Translations under genes and position numbers: made by a program
In this document: one piece after another, positions 5,340 to 35,000 of the stretch
Numbering within the stretch: position 1 is the first letter of the stretch
Layout of the letters: each line of letters opens with the position of its first letter
NCBI GenBank assembly: GCA_009602725.1
Contig: WELB01000295.1
Coordinates: forward strand, 49,915 to 87,260
Direction: 5' to 3'
DNA: 37,346 bases
Source: Spirogloea muscicola
Lineage: Eukaryota > Streptophyta > Zygnematophyceae > Spirogloeales > Spirogloeaceae
Notes under the pieces: generated by a model
Told to the model about the DNA's origin: nothing
What the model saw: only the letters and a program-made list of their open reading frames with translations
Databases searched by the model: none

Positions 5340-5609
5340 TGTCCTTGTCCATTCCTAATGGGGGCAAGGGCTGTGAAAGAAGTGGCACTTCAAATGGGGG
5401 CAAGGGCTGTGATAAGCCAGCCCAAAAAGAATTGACAAGGGTTCGGGGGGGGCGACAAGCGTTTAGCAGCTACAGAAGAAAGAGCTCGCCCATTGAGGAT
5501 AGAGGCTGGAACAGCCAGCCCAAAAAAGAATGGACAAAATACGAGAAGGGAGCCAGGGGAAGCGCTAAGAAAAACAAGCACAAGAAGAAACAAAGCAGCT
5601 ACGAATGAC
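5340..5609. repeat. Dispersed retroelement-associated repeat with tandem pair and hairpin
   Basis: Two copies of TGGGGGCAAGGGCTGTGA lie 36 bp apart (5359-5376 and 5395-5412). The second runs into a perfect 6-bp hairpin GGGCTG-N8-CAGCCC at 5404-5423. Two nearby GCCAGCCCAAA...GAATKGACAA modules (about 5417 and 5513) recur near 10421 and 11948. The block abuts the 3' end of the large retroelement ORF and resembles 21270-21330 in inverse orientation. No gene is supported here. Confidence 0.7.
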
Positions 5610-8600
5610 TCAGTAATTCCTGCTGAGCAGCCGCAGATCAGAGATGCTAGGGGCGTGGAAGTGGGTCCCCTGGACAGAGCCAGAGGCAGCAGCTAGGGCT
5701 CTTCCAGCACGAAGGTGCAGCGCACGGGCCATGGACCTCTGCAGCGAGACGGCCAAGCGCATGCGATACACTTGCGCCAGCGACCCGGCTGCAGGAAAGT
5801 CTACCGGTTCACCATGGAAGCGACGGGCGATTGCGTGGCGGGCGAGCTGGTTAAGTAGCTCAAGCCACCGAGCGCCCAGTGCCCCATGGATGTCAATTGC
5901 CAACGGGAAGAACTCGTCTTCCGGTGGATGGTCGGCGTACTTGATCTCTTTTGCCCGAGCGGCGCAGGCGACCGCATACCCAGCCTTGGTGGCAGACTGG
6001 GCTGGGTGGGAGCGGTCAAATGCGTCGGTAGTCACCACATCCAGAAGCAGACGTGGCCCGCCGGCCTGTGGGGTGGCCACCAGGTCGACGCGACGAGCGT
6101 GGAGACCGTCGGCCCTGGCCTGGAGCGGCATGACGCCGGAGTGCTCCGCTGCCACCGCGAAGCCAGCCTCCACCAGGATGCTGTGCATCGCGTCCCGGAG
6201 GCGGTCGTGGGCCGCCGTCCTCTCGCCGCCATGGGAACAGCGCAGGACGTGAGCAGCCAGCTCGCCAGGCTTGGCCCCTCGCTCGCCACACTGGCATTGA
6301 CGCACGCCCTGGAGGCATGGAGGCGGCAGCCCCAGGAGCCGGTGGACGGCAGTGCGAAACACCTCATCTGGGAGGGTCAGGGCGTCAGTGATGGGGAGTG
6401 CCTGGAGCCACGCCGCTGCCCCCGGGGAGGAGGCCGAATGTAGTCTCGCGCGCCCGCGCAGGTCAGCCTCAGGAAGCTGCAGCACGGCGGTGGTGTAGGC
6501 GGCCTTGTCGACGACGGCCGCGAAGCGCGCTTGGACGCGCAGGTCAGCGGTGTGCGCGAGGTGCGCAAAGGAGACCGCCTGGCCGGCCATGTCGGGGTGC
6601 GCCGCGAGCAGCTCCTGGTGGGCGGTGCGAAGCGCCACCTGGAACGGCAGCGCGCCTTTGTCCACCTCCACCACCGCCTGCTCCAGTGCACGCCGGCCAT
6701 GGACCATGAAGCGCTGAGCCACGGAGGCGGCAGTCTGCGCCCAGCTGCCGAGGTATGCAGCCCGGCATGAGCGGACGAGCGGGCGCAGGCCGAGACCCCC
6801 GTGGCTGATGGGTAGCGCCGCCTGGTGGATAGCGGCTGGCGACTGGGGGAAGCCCTGGTGGCGGACCAGGGCCGCCAAGCTCGCCACCATGCCCGCGTCG
6901 AAAGTCGCGTACGCCGCCAATGCCTCTGGGGACGGCGGGGTGGCCCGCGTCAAGTACTGGGGCCGCTGCCCGATGGCCTTGGTCAGCATGGCCAAGGACA
7001 GCTGCATATCCTCCAGCTCGGGGAGCCGGGCCGCGGGCTGAAGGTGCTCCGCGAGGCGGGCTCGCAGCTGCCCCTCCACGAAGGCTGGCGTGCCGATGGG
7101 GACTCCCAGGAGGGTGAAGCCGTCTGCCGGAGTCCGGCAGCCCGGGGGCAGCGCCAGGGTGGGTAGGATCACGCCAGGGGACCAAGCCGCGCACTTCGCC
7201 GGCCGGATGGTCAGGCCGAGGGTGGCCAGCTGCTGCGTGAAAGTAACGAAGGCCGCCGCCACGTCTTCCGGAGGGCCGACGATGGTGGTGTCGTCCGCGT
7301 AGGTGGGAAGAAGGACTCCTGGGTGGGCCGCAGCGGTAGCCTGCAGAGCCCGGTTGTGCGCGAGCGCAAAGAAGAAGCCGGCGAGGGGGTCCCCTTGCCG
7401 CGTGCCCGAGCGGGACTGCAGGACCTCCACCTGATCACCCCCTGTCCACCAGAGGAGGTCGCTGGGCTGACCGTACCCCAAGCGGAAAAAGGGGACCAGG
7501 GAGGGGAAGGAGGCCCGGAGCTCCTCCGCAATGCAGGCGCGCTCCACGGTGTTGAAGGCGTTTGCCACGTCGACGGCAAGCACCAGCCAGCTCGGGTGCT
7601 GGTCCAAGGTTGCACGGACCCCGTGGACGACGGCCTCACCCCCACTCCGCAGCCCCGCGCCGTACTGGTGTGGCGCCATGTGCACCTGCGCCGGCCCCGC
7701 ATGCTGCTGCCAGAGTACGCGACTCACCAGGCGGTACAGGACCTCCCCAATGGCAATGGGTCTGACCCCCCCGCTCGGCTTGTCGAGGGCGAGCAGCGTG
7801 CTGGCGCACAGGACGCCACGGATGCTGGCCGGCACATTGTCCCTGGCCAGGTGCTGGCAGATCTGCAGCAGCGCGTTGAAGTCCGCCGCCTCGCCCTCGA
7901 GGAAGATCTCCCGCAGGTGCTCAGTGAGCATGCGGGAGGGACCGCCGGCGGCTGCGCGACGGCTGGTCTGGAGAGCCTTCTTGAGGGCGTCGGCTTCCAA
8001 GACCACCGCCTCCGGCGGGGTGAACGCGGCCAACCACGGTGGCAGGGAGGAGCTGGCCGGGGGGTGGAGGGAGTCCAGGGCCGCCCGAGTGGCCGCATTG
8101 GTCGGCGCCAGCATCGCATCGTCCAGGGCCTGCACCGCCCGGGAGAGCTCACCCGCGTGGCCGTAGCGAAGAGCCCTGCGGACGCTGGCGGCCCGGGCGT
8201 GTGTTGCCCCTCGGCCACCACGGTTGGCCGCGGACGCCGCCACGGCTGCGTCGTGCCTGGCCAGGAGCTCCTCCCAGTGCCCGCTCTCGAACAAGTGGAC
8301 GCGCTCCAAGAGGGGCTGCTGGCCCTGCTTGCGGCTGTCGGGAGAGACCCGCCCGAGCAACAACCGGGGGAAGAGGATGAATAACTTCCACGCCGCCTCG
8401 TCCCTGTGGTCCGCGACGATCCGCTGCGTAACCGGGCGGAGCGCGCGGCGGAGGTGCGGGCGCGCCCAACGTGGCACGTGGCGGAGGAGCGGCAGGGCCG
8501 CCTGGCGGTGAACTGCGGCCAGGTCGAGGCCTGCCAGCCACTCCCAGTGATGAGGCGTGGGCGGGGACGGCGCAGGAGGCCTGCCTGGTCGGCCTCGACG

Positions 8601-10247
8601 ACCACCCGCTGCCGCTGCGCTCCGCGCCTGCTCCGCACGGTTGTTGGTACACGCGCAAGCTCGCTGGTGGTTGGACCGGCCGGACCGCGAGGTGAAGGTC
8701 TTCTGGCACAGCTGGCACCGCGGCGGGTCGGGCGAGCGAGGTGGGGGCGACGGCGGTGGCGCCGGCTCGCTCGGCGGAGGTGGAGGCGGCGGAGATGGGG
8801 GCGGCGTCGATGGTGCTGACCGCGGTGGGCACGACGGCGGAGGGGACGGCGGCTGAGCGGGAGGCAATGGATGCTCCTCCATGGCCGGCTCCTGGGGTGA
8901 GGCTTCCAGGACCGTGGCGGTGGGGCTGCAAGCTGCGGCGGCCACATCGGGCGGCGTCGAGGGCGGCGGCGGCGGCGGCGACGGCGGTGGGGACGGCGGC
9001 TGAGCGGGAGGCAATGGATGCTCCTCCATGGCCGGCTCCTGGGGTGAGGCTTCCAGGACCGTGGCGGTGGGGCTGCAAGCTGCGGCGGCCACATCGGGCG
9101 GCGTCGAGGGCGGCGGCGGCGGCGGCGACGGCGGTGGGGACGGCGGCTGAGCGGGAGGCAATGGATGCTCCTCCATGGCCGGCTCCTGGGGTGAGGCTTC
9201 CAGGACCGTGGCGGTGGGGCTGCAAGCTGCGGCGGCCACATCGGGCGGCGTCGAGGGCGGCGGCGGCGGCGGCGACGGCGGTGGGGACGGCGGCTGAGCG
9301 GGAGGCAATGGATGCTCCTCCATGGCCGGCTCCTGGGGTGAGGCTTCCAGGACCGTGGCGGTGGGGCTGCAAGCTGCGGCGGCCACATCGGGCGGCGTCG
9401 AGGGCGGCGGCGGCGGCGGCGACGGCGGTGGGGACGGCGGCTGAGCGGGAGGCAATGGATGCTCCTCCATGGCCGGCTCCTGGGGTGAGGCTTCCAGGAC
9501 CATGGCGGTGGGGCTGCAAGCTGCGGCGGCCACATCGGGCGGCGTCGAGGGCGGCGGCGGCGGCGGCGACGGCGGTGGGGACGGCGGCTGAGCGGGAGGC
9601 AATGGATGCTCCTCCATGGCCGGCTCCTGGGGTGAGGCTTCCAGGACCATGGCGGTGGGGCTGCAAGCTGCGGCGGCCACATCGGGCGGCGTCGAGGGCG
9701 GCGGCGGCGGCGGCGACGGCGGTGGGGACGGCGGCTGAGCGGGAGGCAATGGATGCTCCTCCGTGGCCTGCTCCTGGGGTGAGGCTGCCAGGACCGTGGC
9801 GATGGGGTTGCCAGCTGCGGCGGCCCCACCGGGCGTCGTGCCGGCGGCGCTGGGATACCCCTTGCAATGCTTCCGGTGCATAAGAAAGCGGCTGCTGATA
9901 TGAAAGAATCGGCTGTGAAATGCCGGCGGTGGGGACGGCGGTGGGGACGGCGGCTGAGCGGGAGGCAATGGATGCTCCTCCATGGCCGGCTCCTGGGGTG
10001 AGGCTTCCAGGACCATGGCGGTGGGGCTGCAAGCTGCGGCGGCCACATCGGGCGGCGTCGAGGGCGGCGGCGGCGGCGGCGACGGCGGTGGGGACGGCGG
10101 CTGAGCGGGAGGCAATGGATGCTCCTCCATGGCCGGCTCCTGGGGTGAGGCTGCCAGGACCGTGGCGATGGGGTTGCCAGCTGCGGCGGCCCCACCGGGC
10201 GTCGTGCCGGCGGCGCTGGGATACCCCTTGCAATGCTTCCGGTGCAT
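5610..10247 (-). CDS. Non-LTR retrotransposon polyprotein: C2H2 finger, reverse transcriptase, zinc knuckle, restriction-like endonuclease
   Basis: This uninterrupted 1,545-codon frame is read on the minus strand. Residues 1 to about 480 are Pro-rich tandem repeats. A C2H2 finger follows at about 511-533 (CQLCQKTFTSRSGRSNHQRAC region, 8655-8715). The reverse transcriptase includes GGVRPIAIGEVLYRL, motif A DVANAFNTVE (about 890), SGTRQGDPLAGFFF (about 945) and the catalytic YADD (about 982, 7291-7301). A knuckle CQC...HVLRC lies at about 1317 (6245-6297). A PD-(D/E)XK-like endonuclease then shows RVDLV, LLLDVV and AKEIKY (about 1384-1432). The frame ends ISDLRLLSRNY. This order matches R2-type (RLE) non-LTR elements, which nick target DNA and prime cDNA synthesis there. 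No apurinic-type endonuclease domain is seen. No ATG lies upstream in frame before a stop, so the true 5' end may be lost. The open frame suggests a young, possibly active copy. Confidence 0.9.
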   Translation of the reverse strand: MHRKHCKGYPSAAGTTPGGAAAAGNPIATVLAASPQEPAMEEHPLPPAQPPSPPPSPPPPPPSTPPDVAAAACSPTAMVLEASPQEPAMEEHPLPPAQPPSPPPSPPPAFHSRFFHISSRFLMHRKHCKGYPSAAGTTPGGAAAAGNPIATVLAASPQEQATEEHPLPPAQPPSPPPSPPPPPPSTPPDVAAAACSPTAMVLEASPQEPAMEEHPLPPAQPPSPPPSPPPPPPSTPPDVAAAACSPTAMVLEASPQEPAMEEHPLPPAQPPSPPPSPPPPPPSTPPDVAAAACSPTATVLEASPQEPAMEEHPLPPAQPPSPPPSPPPPPPSTPPDVAAAACSPTATVLEASPQEPAMEEHPLPPAQPPSPPPSPPPPPPSTPPDVAAAACSPTATVLEASPQEPAMEEHPLPPAQPPSPPPSPPPPPPSTPPDVAAAACSPTATVLEASPQEPAMEEHPLPPAQPPSPPPSCPPRSAPSTPPPSPPPPPPPSEPAPPPSPPPRSPDPPRCQLCQKTFTSRSGRSNHQRACACTNNRAEQARSAAAAGGRRGRPGRPPAPSPPTPHHWEWLAGLDLAAVHRQAALPLLRHVPRWARPHLRRALRPVTQRIVADHRDEAAWKLFILFPRLLLGRVSPDSRKQGQQPLLERVHLFESGHWEELLARHDAAVAASAANRGGRGATHARAASVRRALRYGHAGELSRAVQALDDAMLAPTNAATRAALDSLHPPASSSLPPWLAAFTPPEAVVLEADALKKALQTSRRAAAGGPSRMLTEHLREIFLEGEAADFNALLQICQHLARDNVPASIRGVLCASTLLALDKPSGGVRPIAIGEVLYRLVSRVLWQQHAGPAQVHMAPHQYGAGLRSGGEAVVHGVRATLDQHPSWLVLAVDVANAFNTVERACIAEELRASFPSLVPFFRLGYGQPSDLLWWTGGDQVEVLQSRSGTRQGDPLAGFFFALAHNRALQATAAAHPGVLLPTYADDTTIVGPPEDVAAAFVTFTQQLATLGLTIRPAKCAAWSPGVILPTLALPPGCRTPADGFTLLGVPIGTPAFVEGQLRARLAEHLQPAARLPELEDMQLSLAMLTKAIGQRPQYLTRATPPSPEALAAYATFDAGMVASLAALVRHQGFPQSPAAIHQAALPISHGGLGLRPLVRSCRAAYLGSWAQTAASVAQRFMVHGRRALEQAVVEVDKGALPFQVALRTAHQELLAAHPDMAGQAVSFAHLAHTADLRVQARFAAVVDKAAYTTAVLQLPEADLRGRARLHSASSPGAAAWLQALPITDALTLPDEVFRTAVHRLLGLPPPCLQGVRQCQCGERGAKPGELAAHVLRCSHGGERTAAHDRLRDAMHSILVEAGFAVAAEHSGVMPLQARADGLHARRVDLVATPQAGGPRLLLDVVTTDAFDRSHPAQSATKAGYAVACAARAKEIKYADHPPEDEFFPLAIDIHGALGARWLELLNQLARHAIARRFHGEPVDFPAAGSLAQVYRMRLAVSLQRSMARALHLRAGRALAAASGSVQGTHFHAPSISDLRLLSRNY
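8830..10247 (-). repeat. Nine-copy 147-bp (49-codon) in-frame minisatellite in the retroelement N-terminus
   Basis: A nearly identical unit recurs with the plus-strand TGAGCGGGAGGCAATGG landmark at 8854, 9001, 9148, 9295, 9442, 9589, 9736, 9955 and 10102. The spacing is exactly 147 bp except for 219 bp between 9736 and 9955. Each unit encodes 49 residues with MEEHPLPPAQ, poly-Pro and DVAAAACSPTA blocks. Overlaid is a 366-bp in-frame direct duplication: the segment starting MHRKHCKGYPSAAG occurs at 9881 and 10247. Units differ at few sites, implying recent expansion or gene conversion. All frames are open through the array, which explains other long spurious frames here. Confidence 0.93.
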
Positions 10248-10264
10248 GGAGACACCCTTCGGAC

Positions 10265-10860
10265 AGAGGGGCCTGAAGATGTCATGTCAGCACAAGGGGA
10301 GGATGGATCACTCAGTAGTTACGAGTGAGGAGCCGCAGATCCGACAGACTAGCTGCCGGAAAACTATCCCCCTGCCGAAAGCCAGAGGCCGCAGCGAGAG
10401 CACGGCCAGCACGAAAGCCAGCCCGAATCAATTGACAAAGGATCAAAGGGGCCAAATGACGGAGGGGCCCATGTCTATCGCATGCGTCTGTCAATCTCCC
10501 TCCTATGTAGCATTGTTTAGTCTGCACTCGACTCTGCCTGAACAATGTATTGGCTTGAATTGGCCTCCCTTTCAATTCATGCGCCCCGCGCGCCTTCTCC
10601 CTCCAGCGGTCCATGGACCACGCCTTGCATCTGCGTGCTGGGCGTGCTCTCGCTGCGGCCTCCAGCTTTCGTCAGGGGGATAGTTGTCCATTCTTTTCAA
10701 TTCATGCGCCCCGCGCGCCTTCTCTCGCTCTCTCTCTTTTTGGACTGGCTTTGCCAGCTCCTCTTCTCTATATTCTTGATAGTTTTCCGGCAGCTAGTCT
10801 GTTCCTCACTCGTAGCTACTGAGTGGTCCATCCTACACCCGTTCTGACATAGCATATTAA
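10265..10860. mobile_element. Foldback element bounded by inverted retroelement 3' ends
   Basis: On the minus strand, 10442-10312 encodes RAGRALAAASGFRQG and then a tail LSDLRLLTRNY with a stop, continuing into GAGTGATCCATCC. On the plus strand, 10605-10822 encodes RAGRALAAASSFRQG and a tail ending FLTRSY with a stop and GAGTGGTCCATCC. Both arms share GATAGTTTTCCGGCAGCTAG. The arms therefore form terminal inverted repeats of about 85-90 bp (one has an internal gap of about 15 bp) with retroelement 3' ends pointing outward. The centre holds further repeated pieces (GCGCCCCGCGCGCCTTCTC twice). No target-site duplication was identified. Confidence 0.7.
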
Positions 10861-10929
10861 GGCCTCGATAATTGGCCATGCTGCGGCGAGCGCCGCCCGC
10901 AGCAAGGCGGCGAAACACGCTGACCACCC

Positions 10930-11180
10930 CCGGCTGGGGACGAGTTCGTACCCCTGGCCATGAATGTGCACGGGGCTTTGGGTCCCAGTGGCTCGACCTG
11001 CTAGCCAGGCTTGCGTGGCGCGCTGTGTCCTGCAGGCGAGGTGAGCAGGCTGACTTCAACGCCGCTGGCTTGTTAGCCCAAGTCTACCGCATGCATTTCC
11101 CTACAGCGTTCCATGGCCCACAGCTTGCACCTGCTTGCTGGCCGTGCTCTCGCTGCAGCCTCTGGCTTTCGTCAGGAAAG
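10930..11180 (+). pseudogene. Degenerate 5'-truncated retroelement 3' fragment
   Basis: The frames read DEFVPLAMNVHGALG and later RSMAHSLHLLAGRALAAASGF, matching DEFFPLAIDIHGALG and RSMARALHLRAGRALAAASG of the intact element. Stops and frame changes lie between them. Only the last 100-odd residues of the polyprotein are represented. Confidence 0.75.
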
Positions 11181-11271
11181 GAGAGTGTATTAAGAGATGG
11201 AGGGCCATGTGTGGCCAAGTACAAAGGTAAGCACATTGACAAATGTACGTCACCCTGCTGCTAAGCTGACC

Positions 11272-11543
11272 CGCTCAGTACCACGAGTCAGCACATAGAG
11301 GTCACTAACTGATGCCCGAATACCGGACAGCACTCGACAACCTCTAGAGCTACCAGCTAAGGCTCGACCAGCTTTTTGATGCAATGCATGAGCCTGAGCT
11401 CGCTGCAGACAGACTGATACTCGACGTCGCAAGAACGACAAGAAGGCTGCCGGCATGCCCAGCTGAGCTGGAAGCATATCCTCACGACGTGCATATCCCA
11501 AGCTTGAAATCTTCTCCAGCAAGGTGTGAAAGCGAGGGCCCAT
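11272..11543 (-). pseudogene. 5'-truncated fragment of a second retroelement family
   Basis: The minus strand reads MGPRFHTLLEKISS, then ADM..AQLGMPAAFLSFLRRRVSVCLQRAQAHALHQKAGRAL, ending in SDLYVLTRG before GAGCGGGTC. It matches the fragment at 20360-21183 better than the intact ORF, so it belongs to a diverged sister family whose tail ends VLTRGY. It covers only the extreme C-terminus, and the last tail codon is broken. Confidence 0.75.
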
Positions 11544-11589
11544 GCAGCCGAATGTGTCGATGGCCGCCGGTAGGAGATGATCGCTGCGG

Positions 11590-11680
11590 GTATAGTTTTC
11601 CGGCAGCTACTTTGTCGGATTTGAGGCTCCTCACTCGTACTTATTGAGTGATTCATCCTACACCAGTCCTGAGGTAGCGC
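11590..11680 (+). mobile_element. Isolated retroelement 3' tail
   Basis: TATAGTTTTCCGGCAGCTA is followed by a frame ending ATLSDLRLLTRTY, a stop and GAGTGATTCATCC. This matches the arms of the element at 10265-10860. It points rightward while the fragment at 11272-11543 points leftward, again giving two outward-facing 3' ends. Confidence 0.7.
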
Positions 11681-11689
11681 TTCTGGCCC

Positions 11690-12020
11690 CTTCGTAGTGT
11701 GGCCCCTTCGAACCTTGTAAATTTTCGGGCTGGCTTTTCACAGCCCTTGCCACCCTTGGGAGAGCCACCTTCAGCTGGCTCTCGCACTGTTACCAGTCAA
11801 TTTGGAACTGCTGTTTCTTTCTTCTACCTCAGGCCCCCTGAGCACAGGGCTTCGCACCAGCTTTTGTCCGAACAGTGTGTTTACTGGCTTGATCTGGCCT
11901 CCCTTGAGATGCAAGCGCGGCCAGATTGACTGGTGGCTGGGAGAGGCCAGCCCAAAGGAATGGACAAGGTCTGAAGAAGCCGGAGCCCTTGCAATCGTGC
12001 GCGCCGCGCGCCTTCCCCTT
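11690..12020. repeat. Repeat-derived spacer with conserved hairpin
   Basis: It contains the inverse copy of the 5404-5423 hairpin at 11727-11746 (GGGCTG-N8-CAGCCC, different loop). A GCCAGCCCAAAGGAATGGACAA module lies near 11948, and the GCGCCGCGCGCCTTC segment also seen at 10570 and 10700 lies near 12000. No coding gene is supported. Confidence 0.6.
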
Positions 12021-20335: not shown

Positions 20336-20359
20336 ATCACACTCCATTCCCCCCTTCCC

Positions 20360-21183
20360 TTACTTCTCTAGCCACACCTGGTGCCACGGATTGGATCATC
20401 ATCATCTCACATGCCGTCGCCAACGCCTTCAGCATCAGCTCCGAGGCCTTTCGGACGTTCCTGCAACTCTTCCTTGGCCTCCCACCTAACTGCCTAATTG
20501 GGGTGCGCCAATGCGAGTGCGACTTCCGCGCAGAGGGTGCTGAGCTCGCCACTCACATGCTGAGATGCCCCACTGGACCAGAAGTGGGGGGCATCCACAA
20601 CCTCCTCCGCGATCCCCTGGCGGGCTTGATGCGCGACGCCGGCTACCGTGCGGTCGTGGAAGTCAATAATATCATGCCTATCACCACGGACGCCCAGGGA
20701 CATCATCATCGCCGCACACTTGACATTGTGGGCGTGCAACCTGGTGATGGACCACGGGCCCTGGTCGACGTTGTTGTTAAGGAGGCGTATAAAAGTCCAG
20801 CATCAACACACATCGCTGGTCACGAAGTGGGCAGTGCAGAACAAAAAGGTTGCAGCACACTCCGACTACCCACAATGCGATCAGCTCCTGCCAGGGGCAA
20901 TCTTTGGCTGTCTGGGTCCTCGTTTCCACACCATCCTCCAAAACATTGCCAATCTAGGCTCTACACACGTCGTGCAGATGTGTTTCCGGCTGAGATGGGC
21001 TTGCCAGCTGCATACCTGTCTTTCTTGCGACGACGAGTTTCAGCCTGTTTGCAGCGTGCTCAGGCTAATGCCTTGCACCAGAAAGCTGTACGAGCTCTAG
21101 TTGGTGGTAGAAGGGCTTCGTATCTGACATCTAGTATTCAGGCATTGATTAGCGACCTTTATGTTTTGACCCGTGGTTACTGA
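20360..21183 (+). pseudogene. 5'-truncated, frameshifted retroelement of the second family
   Basis: It begins near the region aligned with the end of the reverse-transcriptase linker (AFRTFLQLFLGLPPNCL, cf. VFRTAVHRLLGLPPPCL). It keeps the zinc knuckle CECDFRAEG...HMLRC and endonuclease core (TLDIVGV, ALVDVVVKEAY). It then needs frame changes near 20800 and 20960 to continue through KWAVQNKKVAAHSDY and LGPRFHTILQNI to AYLSFLRRRVSACLQRAQ and the end SDLYVLTRGY plus stop. Similarity to the intact ORF is clear but distant. It is dead as a coding unit. Confidence 0.85.
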
Positions 21184-21577: not shown

Positions 21578-23855
21578 ATGGCCGCCGCCGCGGCGGACCT
21601 CGGCGAGGCCGCTGGGCCGCCGCCGGCGGCGCCGGCAGCGGCGNNNNNNNNNNNNNNNNNNNNNNNNNNNNNNNNNNNNNNNNNNNNNNNNNNNNNNNNN
21701 NNNNNNNNNNNNNNNNNNNNNNNNCGCGCCGCCTCCGTCACCGTCGTCGGCGACCTCCACGGCCAGCTGCACGACGCGCTGGCGCTGGTGGCCGCCGCGG
21801 GCGCGCCCGGCGCCCCGGGCGCGCTGCACGTCTTCAACGGCGACTACGTCGACCGCGGCGCCTGGGGCCTCGAGACGTACCTCCTCCTCCTCGCCTGGAA
21901 GGTCTAACCCCTAACATTGATGTCTAAACTCCTGCTGCGCCCCGCCGGCGTTGCGCGCTGCACTCCGCTACCTGATTACCAAGAACTTGGCTCGGGGTTA
22001 CCGAGAGCGCCCAGTTTTCCTGGCCTGTGGCTCCGCTAACATAGTCATTAACACCCTCTGATGCCACCTGGCTGGCTTCAACAGCTGCTCTTTTGGTATC
22101 AGCATTCGTCTCTGTCATCTGTTGTAGTAACGATGAAGTCGCGGAAGTGTTTTGGCCAGATGTGCTCATGCAGGACTACAATGTCCTGCCAATCAAAGAG
22201 TTGAGAGAGGCTCTTTATGTATGTCAGTTGTATGCGCCCACCAAGCTCAATGGCTGCAGGCGGCTGGTCGCGGCGGTGGTCGCAGCAGGCAGCCTGCGAC
22301 TGTCGACGACCCAAATCCCATAGCTCTGACTTGAGCTCCACGACCGTTGCCGCTTCTGACCCAAAACCCAGAATCCATCTCTCGCGTCGCAGGTGGCGTC
22401 GCCGGAGCGCGTGATCCTGCTGCGTGGCAACCACGAGACGCGCTTCTGCGCAGGCGCATACGGCTTCGAGCGCGAGGTTGCGGCCAAGTACGGCGTGGCC
22501 GACGGCGGCCACCTGTTCCGCCGCGCCCTCGCCACCTTCGAGTCGCACCCGCTGGCCGCCGTGGTCGCCGGGCGGGTCTTCCTCTGCCATGGCGGTCTCT
22601 TCCGTGAGCCCCCCAATCCCGGCCTCGCCGCAGCAGGCAGCGGCAAGGGTCGGCACGCCAAGGGCCGGCATGCCAAGGGCGGCGGCGGAGGCCGGCGGCG
22701 CGTCACACCCAAGGGCCTGCCCGCGGAGCTCCGGCTGGGGGGGCTGGCGGACCTTGCCAAGTCGCGGCGCGCGTTCCTGGACCCCAACGGGCGCGGCCCG
22801 CAGGCGCTCGCCGCTGACGTGCTGTGGTCCGACCCCGGCACGGAGTCGGGGCTGCACCACAACGAGGGCCGCGGCATTGGCCTTGTCTTCGGGCCCGACT
22901 GCACACAGGAGTTCCTCGCCCGGCATGGGCTCAGAGTGAGCTCAACTCCAGATGCAAAACCATAATGATATCTCTACCCTTAGTCAAATTTCTATTCCTA
23001 AACGTAACAGGCTATTGACTGGTAACTATTGTAGCTAACTGCTTGCGAATTAATCCCCCGCCTTTGCACAGCTGATTGTGCGGTCTCACGAGGGCCCCGA
23101 CGCACGTGAGAAGCGGTCCCACATGGCCAGCATGCAGCAAGGGTGGAGCCTGGACCACGACGTGCCGGCTGGGAGGCTCTACACGCTCTTCTCTGCGCCC
23201 GACTACCCACAGTTCCAGGTCAGTCTCGACAGTGCGTCCTCTCTTTTCTTAAGTAGACATAGGCCGAGGAACTGGCTCTGAGCACCATGAATGAACTATG
23301 AAGGTAAAGGCACGCCATTAGTGCGGTTATGACCTTTACCTGTGAGGCCATTAGAGTGCTTCCAGTATTGGCATCTGAAGATGCTGAGGATCTCTTGGAG
23401 TAACTTTTGCCAGTGCTGACGCATGGTGCGCCACGCATGGCCTCCCAGGCGGGCGAGCATCGGCACGGCAACAAGGGCGCATACCTTGTTCTGGAGCCTC
23501 CAGACTTCACTGAACCTCGCATCATCTCGTTCGATGCGGTTCACCCTCGCCCCACGGTAATGCCAAGCACAAGCTCCAATGCAAACGTTCTTGCTTAGCA
23601 CCATGCAAGCCTAAACTGTAGGTTCGAGGTCAAGGGCTTACAGTGGAGGGCCTTGAGATAGTGTCAAGCTTCAGCCCCACCTTGCCCCTTACCTCCACAT
23701 GAGATGATACTATTATCGACTCACTGTGCTGACGGCTACAAAGAGGGCAGGTGAATGCGTACTACGATTTCGCAAACAGTTTGGACTCGGATGAGGAGCT
23801 CAACGTCCATGGCAGCTCCAACAGTGGCAGTGACCAGGATGCAAGCGGCTCATGA
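21578..23855 (+). CDS. PP7: PP7-type serine/threonine protein phosphatase, 5 exons, with internal sequencing gap
   Basis: This is a PPP-family metallophosphatase. Plant PP7 is nuclear, binds calmodulin and acts in light and heat signalling. Exons are 21578-21901, 22393-22935, 23072-23218, 23449-23556 and 23751-23855, giving 408 codons (Arabidopsis PP7 about 413). Metal and phosphate motifs are GDLHGQ, GDYVDRG, RGNHETR and CHGGLF, and later VRSHEGPDAREKR. PP7-specific features are DVLWSDPG...GIGLVFGPDCTQEFL, LFSAPDYPQFQ, NKGAYLVLEPPDF and the acidic tail YYDFANSLDSDEEL. A Gly/Lys/Arg-rich insert (about residues 185-215) holds a doubled GRHAKGRHAKG. The ATG at 21578 opens an Ala-rich leader that runs into 81 Ns. 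The Ns keep frame, but the residues before the first motif are unknown. The promoter side is transposon-derived. Confidence 0.93.
21644..21724. other. Assembly gap of 81 N inside PP7 exon 1
   Basis: A run of N lies between the Ala-rich leader and the first phosphatase motif. Its length is a multiple of three and the frame is open on both sides, so the gap estimate is consistent with continuous coding sequence. Confidence 0.99.
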
Positions 23856-29511: not shown

Positions 29512-31989
29512 ATGGGCGAGGCCGCCCTCCTCGACTCCATGGCCGCGGCTGCGGCGTCTCAGGCGGTCGCCGCTGCCGCTGAGCCGGCGGGGCCGGCGGA
29601 CGACGGCCTGAGCCGGGAGCAGGTCCTGGCGCTGTACCAGAACTGCATCAAGCTCGCGTCGGAGAATGTAAGTGAGCCTCGCCGGGGTGCTGTCACCATC
29701 TGGGCGCTGCCGTTCAGCGCAGGCTTGGACATGCTGCCGGAGGGGCTGCACGGCCATTGCTCCCGGCAAGGTCAGCAGACGGCGCTTTGGTGACATGTCT
29801 GCGCTGTGGCGCGAGGCTCGGGGGCGCAGAAGATCAACCAGAAGAACACTTGGAGCCTGCCGCTGATCGACCACATCAGCGAGATCGTGCTCGGCGACGA
29901 CGACGGCGACAACGCGCAGACCAACTTCCAAAAGGTGTGCCACCTTCTGTCAGAATCTATCGTCAGAATCCATCGTGCCAAGGCCACCAGCAGGTAGTAC
30001 GCAATGAGAAGGCTGGCGGCATTGGCGCTGCCTGCGGCAAGGCTCATGGCGGCCCGGTGGCGGCGGCGGCGGTGTTGGCGTGGCAGGCCAGCTGCACTCT
30101 GGAGGCCGGCGTGAAGATCTACTCGTACCGCGTCGACTCGATGCACTCGGAGACGTACAAGGTCCTCAGCGCGCTCAACCGCTCGGCGGCTGGCCCGGCC
30201 CCGGAGGAAGGTCAGCGCCGCTGGTCCTCGTTTGCCGGTCGTCGTGCTTTCGCAAGACCCACTGTGCGTGGCATCATCTGAGGCCATCGACTTGCCACCG
30301 CGGCCTTTGGTGTCGTGCTCGCTAGCCGGCGACGGCGACGGCGACGGCGACGGCTCTGGCGAGGACGACGACGAGTCTGGCGCAAAGCGCAAGGTCTCCA
30401 AGAAGGTGCGAGCTCCCACAGCCATCAGTCTGGGCTCCGTCCAAGTGCCGCCTACGGGGGCTTGCCGCCGTCATACAGCGCATTCGGTCCTTGGCCAGCC
30501 ATGGCTAAGGCTTGGCGCTCCCTGTCCGGGCCCGCAGCTCGCCTGCCCCTCGGCGACGCTGGAGCCGCCAGAGGCGCTGAACGTCAAGAAGTATGACCGT
30601 GAGTTGCCATGCGCTCCGTCGCCCGCGGCGCGGCAGTGACGCCGGCCATTCCCGCCGCCCACTCGGCAGCCTGCGCTGCTCCAGCTGCCACTTGAGATCC
30701 TCCAGCTGTGCTGATGCTCCGTCGCGCCGCCGCTGCGCCGGCGGGCCCTCCAGTGGCGTTCAGCGTGGACCCGCTCTTCCACCAGACGCAGGCGCAGTTT
30801 GACGAGGGCGGCGCGCGCGGCCTGTTGCTCCACACACTCAGCGTCCACCGCGGCTGCGAGCTGGTCTTCGACTCGCTCGAGGTCCCTGACCAGACGCCGG
30901 CTGCGCCTTCGGCCGACCACGCCGGCGGCGGCGGCGACGATGTCGTTGACCTCTCGTTTGCTTGGAAGGAGGTGCAAGCCGTGCTGGCAGCGGCCGACGC
31001 AGAGACTGAGATCAGCCCGGCGCTGGACGAGATCGTGGCGCTCCTCGACGACCCGCGCCGAGCGGCGGCCGCTGCGGCCGGGTGCTCAGCGGCAGAGGCT
31101 GACGTGGACGGAGCTCTGCAGGCCCAGCGGCAGCTCGGCAGCGCTGCCGCAGAGCCCGATGTAGGACCAGACTGTGGCACTGCCATGGACGCCGTCGAGC
31201 CCTCTGACGCTGCCGGTGACTGGGATCCCCCCGACTGGGACCACGAACCTGGCGATGGCGGCGGGACAACGGTGGCGGCCTCTGACGGTGGGGTCGATGC
31301 TGACATGGAGGGCGTACGCGAGGTATTGGCGAGACTGCATGCTGCGATCTGGCATGCCGGCAGGGCTGCACACTGCCCATGCGTGGCGTCTTGGCTTACT
31401 GCCGTGGCCTGACTCCTGCCGTCGTGCCATGCATGGCACAGGACGGGGCCTCTGATTCAGAGATCGGCGAGGAGGACGAGTCCGGCCAGCTGGCAACGCA
31501 GCGGCGGGCGATCGAGTGGCTGGCCGCCAGCCTCGGCCTCACGGCACCCTCCAAGTCTGGCCGCGATCCCTGGCCTCACCTCAGGCCTCGAGGTGCGGGG
31601 CCTTGGAGCAAGCGTGCACCGATCAATAACATTAACATAATCTTCAATTTATTATATTACATCACAGTTACTGTATGATATAAATATGCTGCAGGTGGAC
31701 TGCCTGAGGCTTGCAGTGCTGTCTTCCAAGCAGGGGGAAATTCCACAATTGGTTGTTGCATGCTTGGTCTCGTCTACATTTTAGGTTCAATTTGTTTAAA
31801 GTCATCAGGATTGTCACGTGGGTCTGGCATGCAAGCAGATCAGGCCGCCAGGAAGGCCAGGCGCGAGCGGAAGCAGCCAGCCTACATCGATTTCTACGAC
31901 CTTAGTGCCGTGGACGTGGCCGCGTTCGCACCGCCCGAGGACCCGCGTGAGACGCTCCTGGCCCGGTCTACGGCCACGGCGGTTGCTAA
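29512..31989 (+). CDS. CAPH: Condensin subunit 2 (CAP-H / kleisin), 3'-truncated at assembly join
   Basis: CAP-H is the kleisin of condensin I; it bridges the SMC2-SMC4 heads to compact mitotic chromosomes. Exons are 29512-29667, 29830-29934, 30087-30210, 30326-30405, 30538-30598, 30754-31322, 31442-31592 and 31785 to about 31989, all in phase. The ATG is at 29512. Landmarks are LALYQNCIKLASEN, KINQKNTWSLPLIDHISEIV, SCTLEAGVKIYSYRVDSMHS then YKVLSALNR, EALNVKKYD, FSVDPLFHQTQAQFDEGGAR, CELVFDSLEVP, the acidic segment GEEDESG and KQPAYIDFYDL. A GGCGAC run encodes a Gly-Asp repeat in exon 4. The frame runs into a single N at 31990. The expected C-terminal third or quarter, including the winged helix that binds SMC4, is not found, because the sequence past the N belongs to another gene. 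Confidence 0.93.
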
Positions 31990-32009: not shown

Positions 32010-35000
32010 GTGGCCGCGGCTGGCGGCGCTCAGGACGGCGAGGCGCCGGACGGCGACGCCGCCGCGGCGGCCGCGGAGGACGAGGACGCTGCGCAGTGTC
32101 TGCGCGCTGGCAACGAGGCCTACCGCCAGGGCCAGTTCGCCGACGTGAGAGCTCCCGCGGCAGCCATCCATGGCCGCCGCTCCTCCCTCGCCCTCGTCGG
32201 CGCTGCCCCTGCTGATGAGCTCTGCTGCGGCGGCGCGCTCGCAGGCCATCCAGTCGTACACGCAGGGCCTGCAGGAGCACCCGCGGGACCCCTCGCTGCT
32301 CCTCGGCAACCGCTGCGCCGCCTTCTGCAGGTCTCGCCTCGGCAGCTCCACATGCAGTCATCGCAAGGATCTGGTTATGCATTCATTGCATACTGAATGT
32401 TAGTACGATAGTATCAGTAGTATCAGATCAGTATTAGTATGTTAATTTGGTATTAGTAACGATATAGCATCAGATTAGTATGAATGTTAGTATGAAGTTA
32501 GTATGATATGATGTATGATATGATATGTATGATGTCAAGCTTTGGTGATGCAGTGGTTTCGTATAGGTCGCAGCCATCATGATTGCAGTCGCAGTGCTCG
32601 CCTTCTCGGCGCTGCTCTCATCGCTCGAACCTGCGTTCCCTTGTTTGCGGGAGTGCAGCCTCAGCCGGTGGCTGCGCCAGATCCCGGCTGGGCAGTCGGA
32701 GCAGCAGGCGCTCTCGGGCTTGGACCCTATCTCGCTCGCCCAGGTGTGCACAGTCCTACTCGATATCAGTGGGACTAAACTCAACTCAAGTTAAGTCAGT
32801 CAAGTCAAGTATAGTCAAGTCAAGTCAAAGAAGCGGAAGTTAAGTTCCAACAAGAACTTGATCAACGAATCTGTAGCAGTACTGCTGAAGGTCTCAGTCC
32901 TTCTGAGGCACGGCGCCCGTCGCTCAGCGGCGCCCTCGTTGGGCCGGCATGGCATAAGCTCGAGGCCTGACTTTGAGACGGCTGCTTGATCGGCGGTGAT
33001 GCAGCTGGCGGTGAAGGACGCGGAGAAGGCCGTGGCGGCCCGCGGCGCGTCCTGGCCCAAGGCGCATGGCCGCCTGGCAGGCGCCCACATGGTGCTGGAG
33101 CACTACGATGCCGCGCGCGCCGCGCTCGCTGCTGGCCTCGCCCTGCACCCCAATGAGTGAGACATTCGGTGGCCTTGCATTAACATATCTGTGGGCTCTT
33201 AATGGGGTTATTGGAGCGACTAACCGCGGCGCTCTGTCGTGCTGCAGCCAGCTGCTTCTCGCGATGCACGACGCGCTCGAGTCGGCCATCTACTCGGACG
33301 AGGTGGTCGGCAGAGAGGCGGCCAAGGCGGCGAGGCGGCAGCAGGACGAGGAGGAGGCCGAGGCCGCCGAGCGGCCTGCTGCCGGGGCGAGGCCGCCGCT
33401 GCGCCAGGTCTCAAGGGGCGACGAGCTGGACTGCGTGCTCTGCCTCAAGCTGCTCTACCAGCCGGCCACGACGCCCTGCGGCCACACGTTCTGCCGGGCG
33501 TGCCTCGCCCGTGCTCTTGACCACAGTGAGCAGCCCATGCACCGGATGACGGGCTCAATTGCCACGACCATGTATGGCTGGCGGCCATGTCAGGCCTCTG
33601 ACACGCGCTCCGCTTGATGGGCTGCGCGCTTTGCTGCAGGCAGCAAATGCCCTGTTTGCCGCTCCACCCTCTTCATGAGCGCCCGGAGCTATCCCATAAG
33701 GTCCTCACTTGATCCGAGCCGCTGCCGCCTTGGCCGCGTTCGCACGCATTGCCACATTCTTGGTGATGCATCGGAAGGAATGACTTATGATCTGCTTCGC
33801 GTGTCTGCTTGTGCAGTGTGACTCTGCAGGCCCTTGTCGAGCGCAGCTTCCCGGAGGAGTATGCCGAGCGGGCGGCCGAGATGGAGGCTCTCACCTCTGC
33901 TGGCCCTCAGGTGGGGCCCTCCGTCACGCCTGAGCCTCGCAGTCAGTGCCTTGTGTCTCTCCTGGCGAGGCTTATACTTGTCTGCTTACTTAGCCATGTT
34001 GGCGCAATACTTGTCTTGGTCTGTGCAGAAGCTGCCGATGTTTGTGATGGACGTGGTCCTGCCGGGCCAGAAGGTCAAGCTCAACATCTTTGAGCCGCGC
34101 TATCGCTTGATGGTAAGGTCTCACAGCAAGAACCCCCATCACACTGCGCACGTACAAGCAAGCATTGCTGGTGTTGTGACTGATGCAGCAGTTTGAGTGA
34201 GTTGATGCAGGTGAGGCGAGTGATGGAGTCTGACCGGCACATGGGCATGGTGTGAATCTGTTACCCATACTGCTTATCAGTTGTCGGGCAATGACACACA
34301 TCTATCCTGATTCATTTTGTCAGTGTGCTGAAGCCCTTGTCTAGCCAGTGGCACGAGTTTTCCATATGCATGTCTTGTGAACTCAAGCCCCACGGATGGT
34401 GCACAGCCTCATCTTGAGCGCGACATTCTGGGGTACTTTAGGTGGGGTATGATGCTGCTACGCAGCAGCCAGCGGACGTTGCGTGTGAAGTTGAGATATG
34501 CGAGTGAGCACCAGTCTGCTGGCAACCTTGCCACTATGATTGTACCCAAGTGAAACCTTATGCTTCTCTGCGATAATCTAAGGCTGGATCTTCGTGTATG
34601 CAGTCAAGAGATAGGCAGCTCTTATAGTATCCGTGTGGATGTGGGACTGTCTGTATATATTGATGCAGATGCGTGCCGTTGCCAGATGGCAGACTGTATT
34701 TGGAGGTACTCATAATCTTGGTGTCATTTGCTGCTTGCTCAGTCTCCCTGGTGTTGTTATATGCACTAGACTGGAATGCTTGGTGTTGCTCCATGCTGGC
34801 TGCTCTGTGGAGTCCAAATGTGTTCAGCTTAGAGGCAGCTGACTATTCACCTCTTTAGTGCATCCTCCATAAGAGTCAAACTTATCACTCTCTTATCGAG
34901 ACAAGAAACCGCTGATCTTATGGATCTACTGTAGTTCAGCAAGTCAGGCAACTTCTCGCTTTCTCTCACGTGGTATTCTTCTTGGACATGTTATAGGTGG

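Follow-up and report, generated by a model that had tools for sequence, protein, structure and literature searches.

The element in the window (the whole 37,346-nt stretch of DNA that was analysed) is very probably a 5'-truncated copy of a single-ORF LINE encoding one or more zinc fingers, a reverse transcriptase, a Cys/His knuckle and a restriction-like endonuclease (RLE), the relatives of which move by target-primed reverse transcription, lie dispersed in the genome and nest in one another. The lineage is best read as a non-site-specific, self-nesting RLE-type LINE, parallel to EhLINE1 of Entamoeba. The host genome (153.1 Mb in 471 contigs) gave 68 matches to a light-harvesting model, and one fragment matched chlorophyll a/b binding proteins, from entries which we take to be those of plants and green algae, with E-values of 1.8e-83 or weaker, outranked by an LHCI-2 chain of 620 aa (8e-106). 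These matches support a host with a green (chlorophyll a/b) plastid, in agreement with the green-lineage host originally proposed, and fit a primary and a secondary green alga alike.

The window copy and its surroundings

The features recognized in the window are as follows.

5474..10263, minus strand: retrotransposon copy of subfamily A, 5'-truncated at 10263, with its 3' end near 5474
5610..10247, minus strand: open reading frame of 1545 codons
8832..9839, minus strand: coding minisatellite, 147-bp unit x 6.9, proline-rich N-terminal region
8664..8720, minus strand: C2H2/C2HC-type finger, the second finger of the full-length element (zf-met, E = 0.0097), conserved in subfamily B
7098..7784, minus strand: reverse transcriptase domain RVT_1, with YADD at 7290-7301
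6237..6296, minus strand: Cys/His knuckle C-X1-C-X12-H-X3-C, Cys and His invariant in the alignments
5865..6209, minus strand: putative restriction-like endonuclease core, H848, E869, D889, D904 and K934-X2-K-Y938 (P0001 numbering)
5474..5525, minus strand: 3' tail, hairpin GGGCTGG-loop-CCAGCC plus terminal TCAATGGGCGAGC(N)CTTTCTTCT
10315..10416, minus strand: 3' end fragment of another copy (tblastn 73.5% over 34 aa)
10974-11099, plus strand: sister piece
11280..11597, minus strand: C-family fragment (83% to the L049 protein over 106 aa)
20359..21180, plus strand: C-family copy, C-terminal part, frameshifted around the catalytic K (69.5% to the L049 protein)

The frame reads from ATG to stop (1545 aa) and, as predicted, carries the reverse transcriptase with YADD, the CQC...H...C knuckle and the RVDLV, LLLDVV and AKEIKY segments in one piece, the C2H2 finger at residues 510-528 being weak and below the Pfam cut-off. 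The original prediction also described the element as intact; the frame is indeed open, but the copy breaks off at 10263, partway through a first zinc finger present in its siblings. Subfamily A siblings align with the window copy up to 10262-10263, similar sequence continues upstream in all five siblings shown (L002, L003, L004, L005, L007), and the first finger is complete there in L002, L004 and L005 as CPTCPRDF(K/R)NPKGVSMHRKHC, followed by further coding sequence; the same region is disturbed in L007. Homology in the window copy starts at PKGVSMHRKHC, which keeps just the last part of this finger. Since the siblings extend past 10263 and the 3' end of another copy lies just 5' of the window copy, the latter is regarded as 5'-truncated, a common outcome of target-primed reverse transcription, and it may itself be dead. 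Its 3' limit is marked by the loss of homology in most other copies at about 5473-5478.

Residues 1-500 of the window ORF are largely encoded by the minisatellite (98% matches), so that the length of 1545 overstates the conserved protein. The repeat stands in frame within 8832-10247, and its unit number seems lower in siblings such as L002, as a result of which protein length would differ among copies.

The sister copies expected nearby were found on both strands (the last four features above). In addition, 3' fragments of several subfamilies in both orientations form a patchwork of nested insertions upstream of the element, at 10264-11800. A recurrent unit around CAATTCATGCG..CGCGCGCCTTCTCTC, a dispersed repeat that adjoins many junctions, was seen at 10590-10740 and in the flanks of L013, L020, L023, L034, L038 and L040. 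The element sits in gene-bearing DNA, with host gene pieces for a calcineurin-like phosphoesterase, condensin subunit 2 (Cnd2) and a RING finger protein at 22393-22965, 30708-31412 and 33066-33617. The window gave no Rfam match.

Protein domains, the putative endonuclease and relatives

The window ORF encodes a reverse transcriptase of the non-LTR type (RVT_1, E = 1.8e-17, residues 822-1050; Pfam) and is under constraint, with a dN/dS of 0.17 against subfamily B over 1046 codons. For the knuckle and endonuclease together, the A-B comparison (229 codons) gave a dN/dS of 0.141 and that of two C copies (C-C2; 226 codons) one of 0.063, values no higher than those of the reverse transcriptase (0.221 and 0.084, respectively). 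Values for A-L006 (0.85), A-L004 (0.63) and A-L005 (0.40) came from pieces picked by longest frame and were set aside because these pieces are thought to include misframed stretches. Subfamilies A/B and C coexist in the genome, C at about 44% protein identity. One full-length B ORF has 1299 aa and two finger-like motifs with Pfam scores below cut-off, and one full-length C ORF has 1255 aa and one finger-like motif (zf-C2HC_2, E = 0.0004, below cut-off). A single ORF with N-terminal zinc finger(s) is a feature of both B and C, the window copy being without the first finger. Besides RVT_1 and these sub-threshold fingers, Pfam yielded nothing in either of these two full ORFs, with no match to APE, RNase H or Ulp1 at E <= 5.

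When the last 996 residues were searched against all solved structures (phmmer), the only matches at E <= 1 were three proteins of R2 retrotransposons. With a five-member family profile, R2 proteins in the PDB scored 1.8e-13 to 6e-11, group II/retron-type reverse transcriptases 2e-4 and weaker, and human L1 ORF2p 3e-3 and weaker, suggesting a reverse transcriptase that ranks nearest to R2 among the few solved structures, by score and not by phylogeny. Relatives were also sought in a viral contig collection (46 pattern stretches) and a genome contig collection (95 pattern stretches), and none was confirmed in either. Two C-family matches, at G000:C119:216530-217213 and G000:C380:9892-10575, are recorded within open frames that span 5700 and 3525 aa.

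The landmarks of LINE RLEs are a conserved H that opens the first helix, an acidic residue behind the first strand, two D residues and a catalytic K far downstream in a KX2KY motif (PMC5678591, in excerpt). The core in the window was assigned from family alignments against that description, and the C-terminus fits it, with H848 at the first-helix start, E869 after the first strand, D889, D904 and a distal K. The first four residues were invariant in 12 of 12 family members and the K and Y in 11, the sole exception being the frameshifted window copy at 20503. The KX2KY motif reads KEIKY in A, KELKY in B and KLRHY (K-X2-H-Y) in C, and the GXW motif is approximate (GARW/GPRF). The knuckle reads C-X1-C-X11/12-H-X3-C in the aligned families, not with the published spacing CX2-3CX7-8HX4C, which is described as highly conserved in the excerpt of PMC5678591; because APE LINEs have a knuckle too, this spacing was not taken as defining RLE-type LINEs.

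Sequence searches did not find the endonuclease domain in Pfam (last 231 residues of 12 family members), the best match being an unrelated winged-helix model at E = 0.17 in 4 of the 12, and a profile search against the PDB gave one match at E = 1, hence no convincing solved structure. AlphaFold models were of low confidence (mean pLDDT 39.1 for one sequence and 34.9 for three window rows); the three-row model, to whose confidence no weight attaches, has a helix at 80-97, strands at 100-104, 126-130 and 136-141 and a helix at 161-169, which is the expected order plus extra strands in between. Foldseek with the low-confidence model gave 295 matches at E <= 10 and none at E <= 0.001, with nucleotidyltransferases ranking above EcoRV. 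Since neither sequence nor fold searches gave anything convincing, the assignment as an endonuclease is based on motifs, selection and architecture. To judge by its motifs, the C-terminus is a putative restriction-like endonuclease, and the element would belong to the RLE-type LINEs in a broad sense, by motif and architecture and with a knuckle of different spacing. The RLE-type assignment made at the outset thus stands on the catalytic motif (H, E, D, D, K and Y in order) and on the architecture.

For a green host, the RLE-bearing LINEs to compare are Dualen/RandI of green algae, and the element could be an APE-less derivative of this one RLE-bearing group found there, which is improbable though the best placed of the alternatives. 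Dualen families have been reported in all core-Reinhardtinia species of PMC8226300 (in excerpt). RandI is one of three LINE groups tabulated for green algae, next to L1 and RTEX, and SINEX-2_CR, which is linked to RandI, has a (CTTT)n tail (PMC3747384, in excerpt). However, Dualen carries both APE and RLE (PMC4640811, in excerpt), whereas the one full B and one full C ORF have neither APE nor RNase H, so that Dualen was rejected by domain content. Moreover, the APE model PF14529 had no match in the whole genome and the general APE model PF03372 had ten, suggesting that APE LINEs are rare here or too divergent to see.

Copy number, 3' tails and insertion pattern

Genome-wide, the 22-base core of the 3' tail had 4554 exact copies (2310 forward, 2244 reverse; reversed control 0), a 35-base endonuclease pattern 639 matches and a 32-base near-5' pattern 52 (the latter two with up to 3 mismatches, controls 0). 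The gradient 4554 / 639 / 52 shows steep 5' truncation, and the tail may be common to further families. The C family has a different tail from A/B, with 1705 genomic matches at up to 3 mismatches. First-look candidate numbers (6627, 12447 and 16560) are not counts of copies.

Among 20 sampled B loci, nine had the start, both fingers, the ADD motif, the endonuclease motif and the stop in one frame, four ran into N and seven were truncated or altered. The median pairwise difference among the seven B copies measurable over about 4 kb was 0.10%, and L010 and L024, on different contigs and with different flanks, were identical over 4016 bp. This near-identity indicates very recent activity; the recent activity predicted for the lineage is thus borne out by subfamily B and not by the window copy. 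L028 matches L010 in the near 5' flank and, with 3 differences, over most of the 2.06 kb that follow the ATG, and from there on it is a roughly 93% relative, a pattern due to recombination or to an assembly artefact; an N run begins about 2.10 kb past the ATG in L013, L017, L025 and L026.

The hairpin GGGCTGG-loop-CCAGCCC, allowing up to two substitutions, was present in 64 of 76 sampled tails; a stretch resembling TCAATGGGCGAGC and an end resembling CTTTCTTCT come after it, and this tail is probably what the reverse transcriptase recognizes. A third tail type (GGGCTGGCTT..CACAGCCCTTGCCCCCATT...CCACTTCTTTC) was observed close to the A/B tail, in the window at 5340-5450 and at several loci, and may represent a further family or a non-autonomous element.

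Site-specific insertion had been expected for an RLE element, with an alignment of genomic 3' ends proposed as a test for a preferred target; the expected specificity is not borne out. Flanks of B copies differ from one copy to another. In most pairs of 20 C copies the flanks diverge about 91-107 nt past the stop, with some alignments extending to 112-188 nt where both flanks are repeats. Across 59 distinct 3' junctions kept from the 76 tails, T was over-represented at +1 to +4 (0.23-0.49 bits), and base information at +5 to +20 was 0.08 bits or less. The T-rich start may reflect tail slippage or length variation, or priming microhomology, rather than target choice. Strict site specificity was rejected on account of the differing B and C flanks and the lack of target bases beyond this start. 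Six of 11 B copies showed target duplications of 6-8 bp, frequently accompanied by as many as 26 additional bases ahead of the 5' end of the element. Over all 11, the best shared word averaged 6.8, as against 5.0 in mismatched pairs (permutation P = 0.0006). As some such words include part of the CTT tail of the element itself, the duplication lengths given are maxima.

Of the 11 B copies that retain an intact tail, six (L009, L011, L016, L020, L024 and L027) sit directly in other element copies, their 3' flanks entering element DNA within about 13 nt of the junction. The nesting of L016 consists of a 23-nt match, and L018 has a 23-nt match about 90 nt away. The probability of six in 11 is 6e-6 at an element coverage of 5% of the genome and 0.03 at 25%, and that of five in 11, without L016, is 1e-4 and 0.11, respectively; coverage itself was put at 1-2% by a rough model from tail counts, which used 760 nt where the measured spacing is 545. 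Nine further B loci fell outside this test, four because they run into N and five with shortened, broken or different 3' ends. In a first flank test, 34 of 72 tail flanks matched a library that held up to 400 bases past the C copies, four of these matches being the locus itself and others (L023 among B) a dispersed repeat; the 11-copy test used an element library without the stretches beyond the C copies. On contig C1, tails were clustered as well, with 18 of 86 gaps below 1 kb, compared with 3.2 expected and a maximum of 11 in 20000 simulations.

The nesting and this clustering would suit an RLE element that prefers a repeat target, namely its own copies and above all their 3' region, in a Zepp-like manner. 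This is slightly less probable still than a Dualen/RandI origin, given that landing points differ (ORF, 3' UTR, either orientation), that 5 of the 11 B flanks are not directly in element DNA, that base information is lacking past +4, that C copies have differing flanks and that the element coverage of the genome is a modelled figure. With dispersed, non-site-specific insertion as the preferred reading, full-length relatives would move by target-primed reverse transcription, in which the endonuclease would nick DNA with low sequence preference, the hairpin tail at the 3' end of the RNA, judging by its conservation, would be taken as template, and short T/pyrimidine matches at the nick may aid priming. 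Copying often ends early, leaving the many 5'-truncated copies observed, and 6-8 bp target duplications are seen in about half of the testable copies; the dispersed insertions are enriched in existing copies, giving the nested clusters found in the sample and on one contig.

Comparison with known elements and significance

R2 is specific for 28S rRNA genes. R2Bm and R2Tg, the best PDB matches, have the same single ORF with N-terminal finger(s), a reverse transcriptase, a knuckle and an RLE whose lysine lies distally in KX2KY, whereas the insertions here are dispersed, with flanks that vary from copy to copy instead of the 28S rDNA target of the R2 clade, and the knuckle spacing differs. NeSL targets the spliced leader. 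No fixed repeat target of the NeSL/Utopia kind (U2; spliced leader) was found, as the flanks differ, and Ulp1 was absent. That an ordinary APE-type LINE should have an RLE-like C-terminus by chance is highly improbable, since, despite an endonuclease found by neither sequence nor fold search, the one full B and one full C ORF have no APE domain, the landmarks are conserved in a region under purifying selection, and R2 stands above L1 in reverse transcriptase scores.

The non-site-specific RLE-type LINE preferred here is closest, by description, to EhLINE1, an RLE LINE of Entamoeba that does not insert at specific sequences and lies near T-rich stretches (PMC3118788, in excerpt); it differs in its host and in the self-nesting observed here, which that excerpt does not mention for EhLINE1. 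Target specificity prevails in four of the five RLE clades other than Dualen; the HERO clade, with many non-specific families, is likewise similar by description (PMC4640811, in excerpt). Zepp/ZeppL, a green algal LINE, also nests in its own copies with frequent 5' truncation, but is L1-type and forms one cluster per chromosome (PMC8226300, in excerpt), whereas the present element is RLE-type, dispersed along contig C1 and without the APE endonuclease of Zepp in the two full ORFs (one B, one C) searched.

We tentatively suggest, while leaning towards doubt, that a separate APE-free, RLE-only LINE lineage has come to occupy the LINE niche of this green genome, giving up fixed targets in favour of low-specificity nicking biased to its own copies, and that the changed knuckle may mark a new RLE clade. 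Searches of open-access literature, which leaves out Repbase, turned up no APE-free RLE LINE described from the green lineage, and only Dualen/RandI were found there with this endonuclease, so RLE-only LINEs would be extended to this lineage. RLE elements are known above all for inserting at specific sites; a natural, dispersed RLE family of recent activity, offering thousands of insertions, target duplications and full copies that are nearly identical, opens the determinants of target choice to comparative testing.
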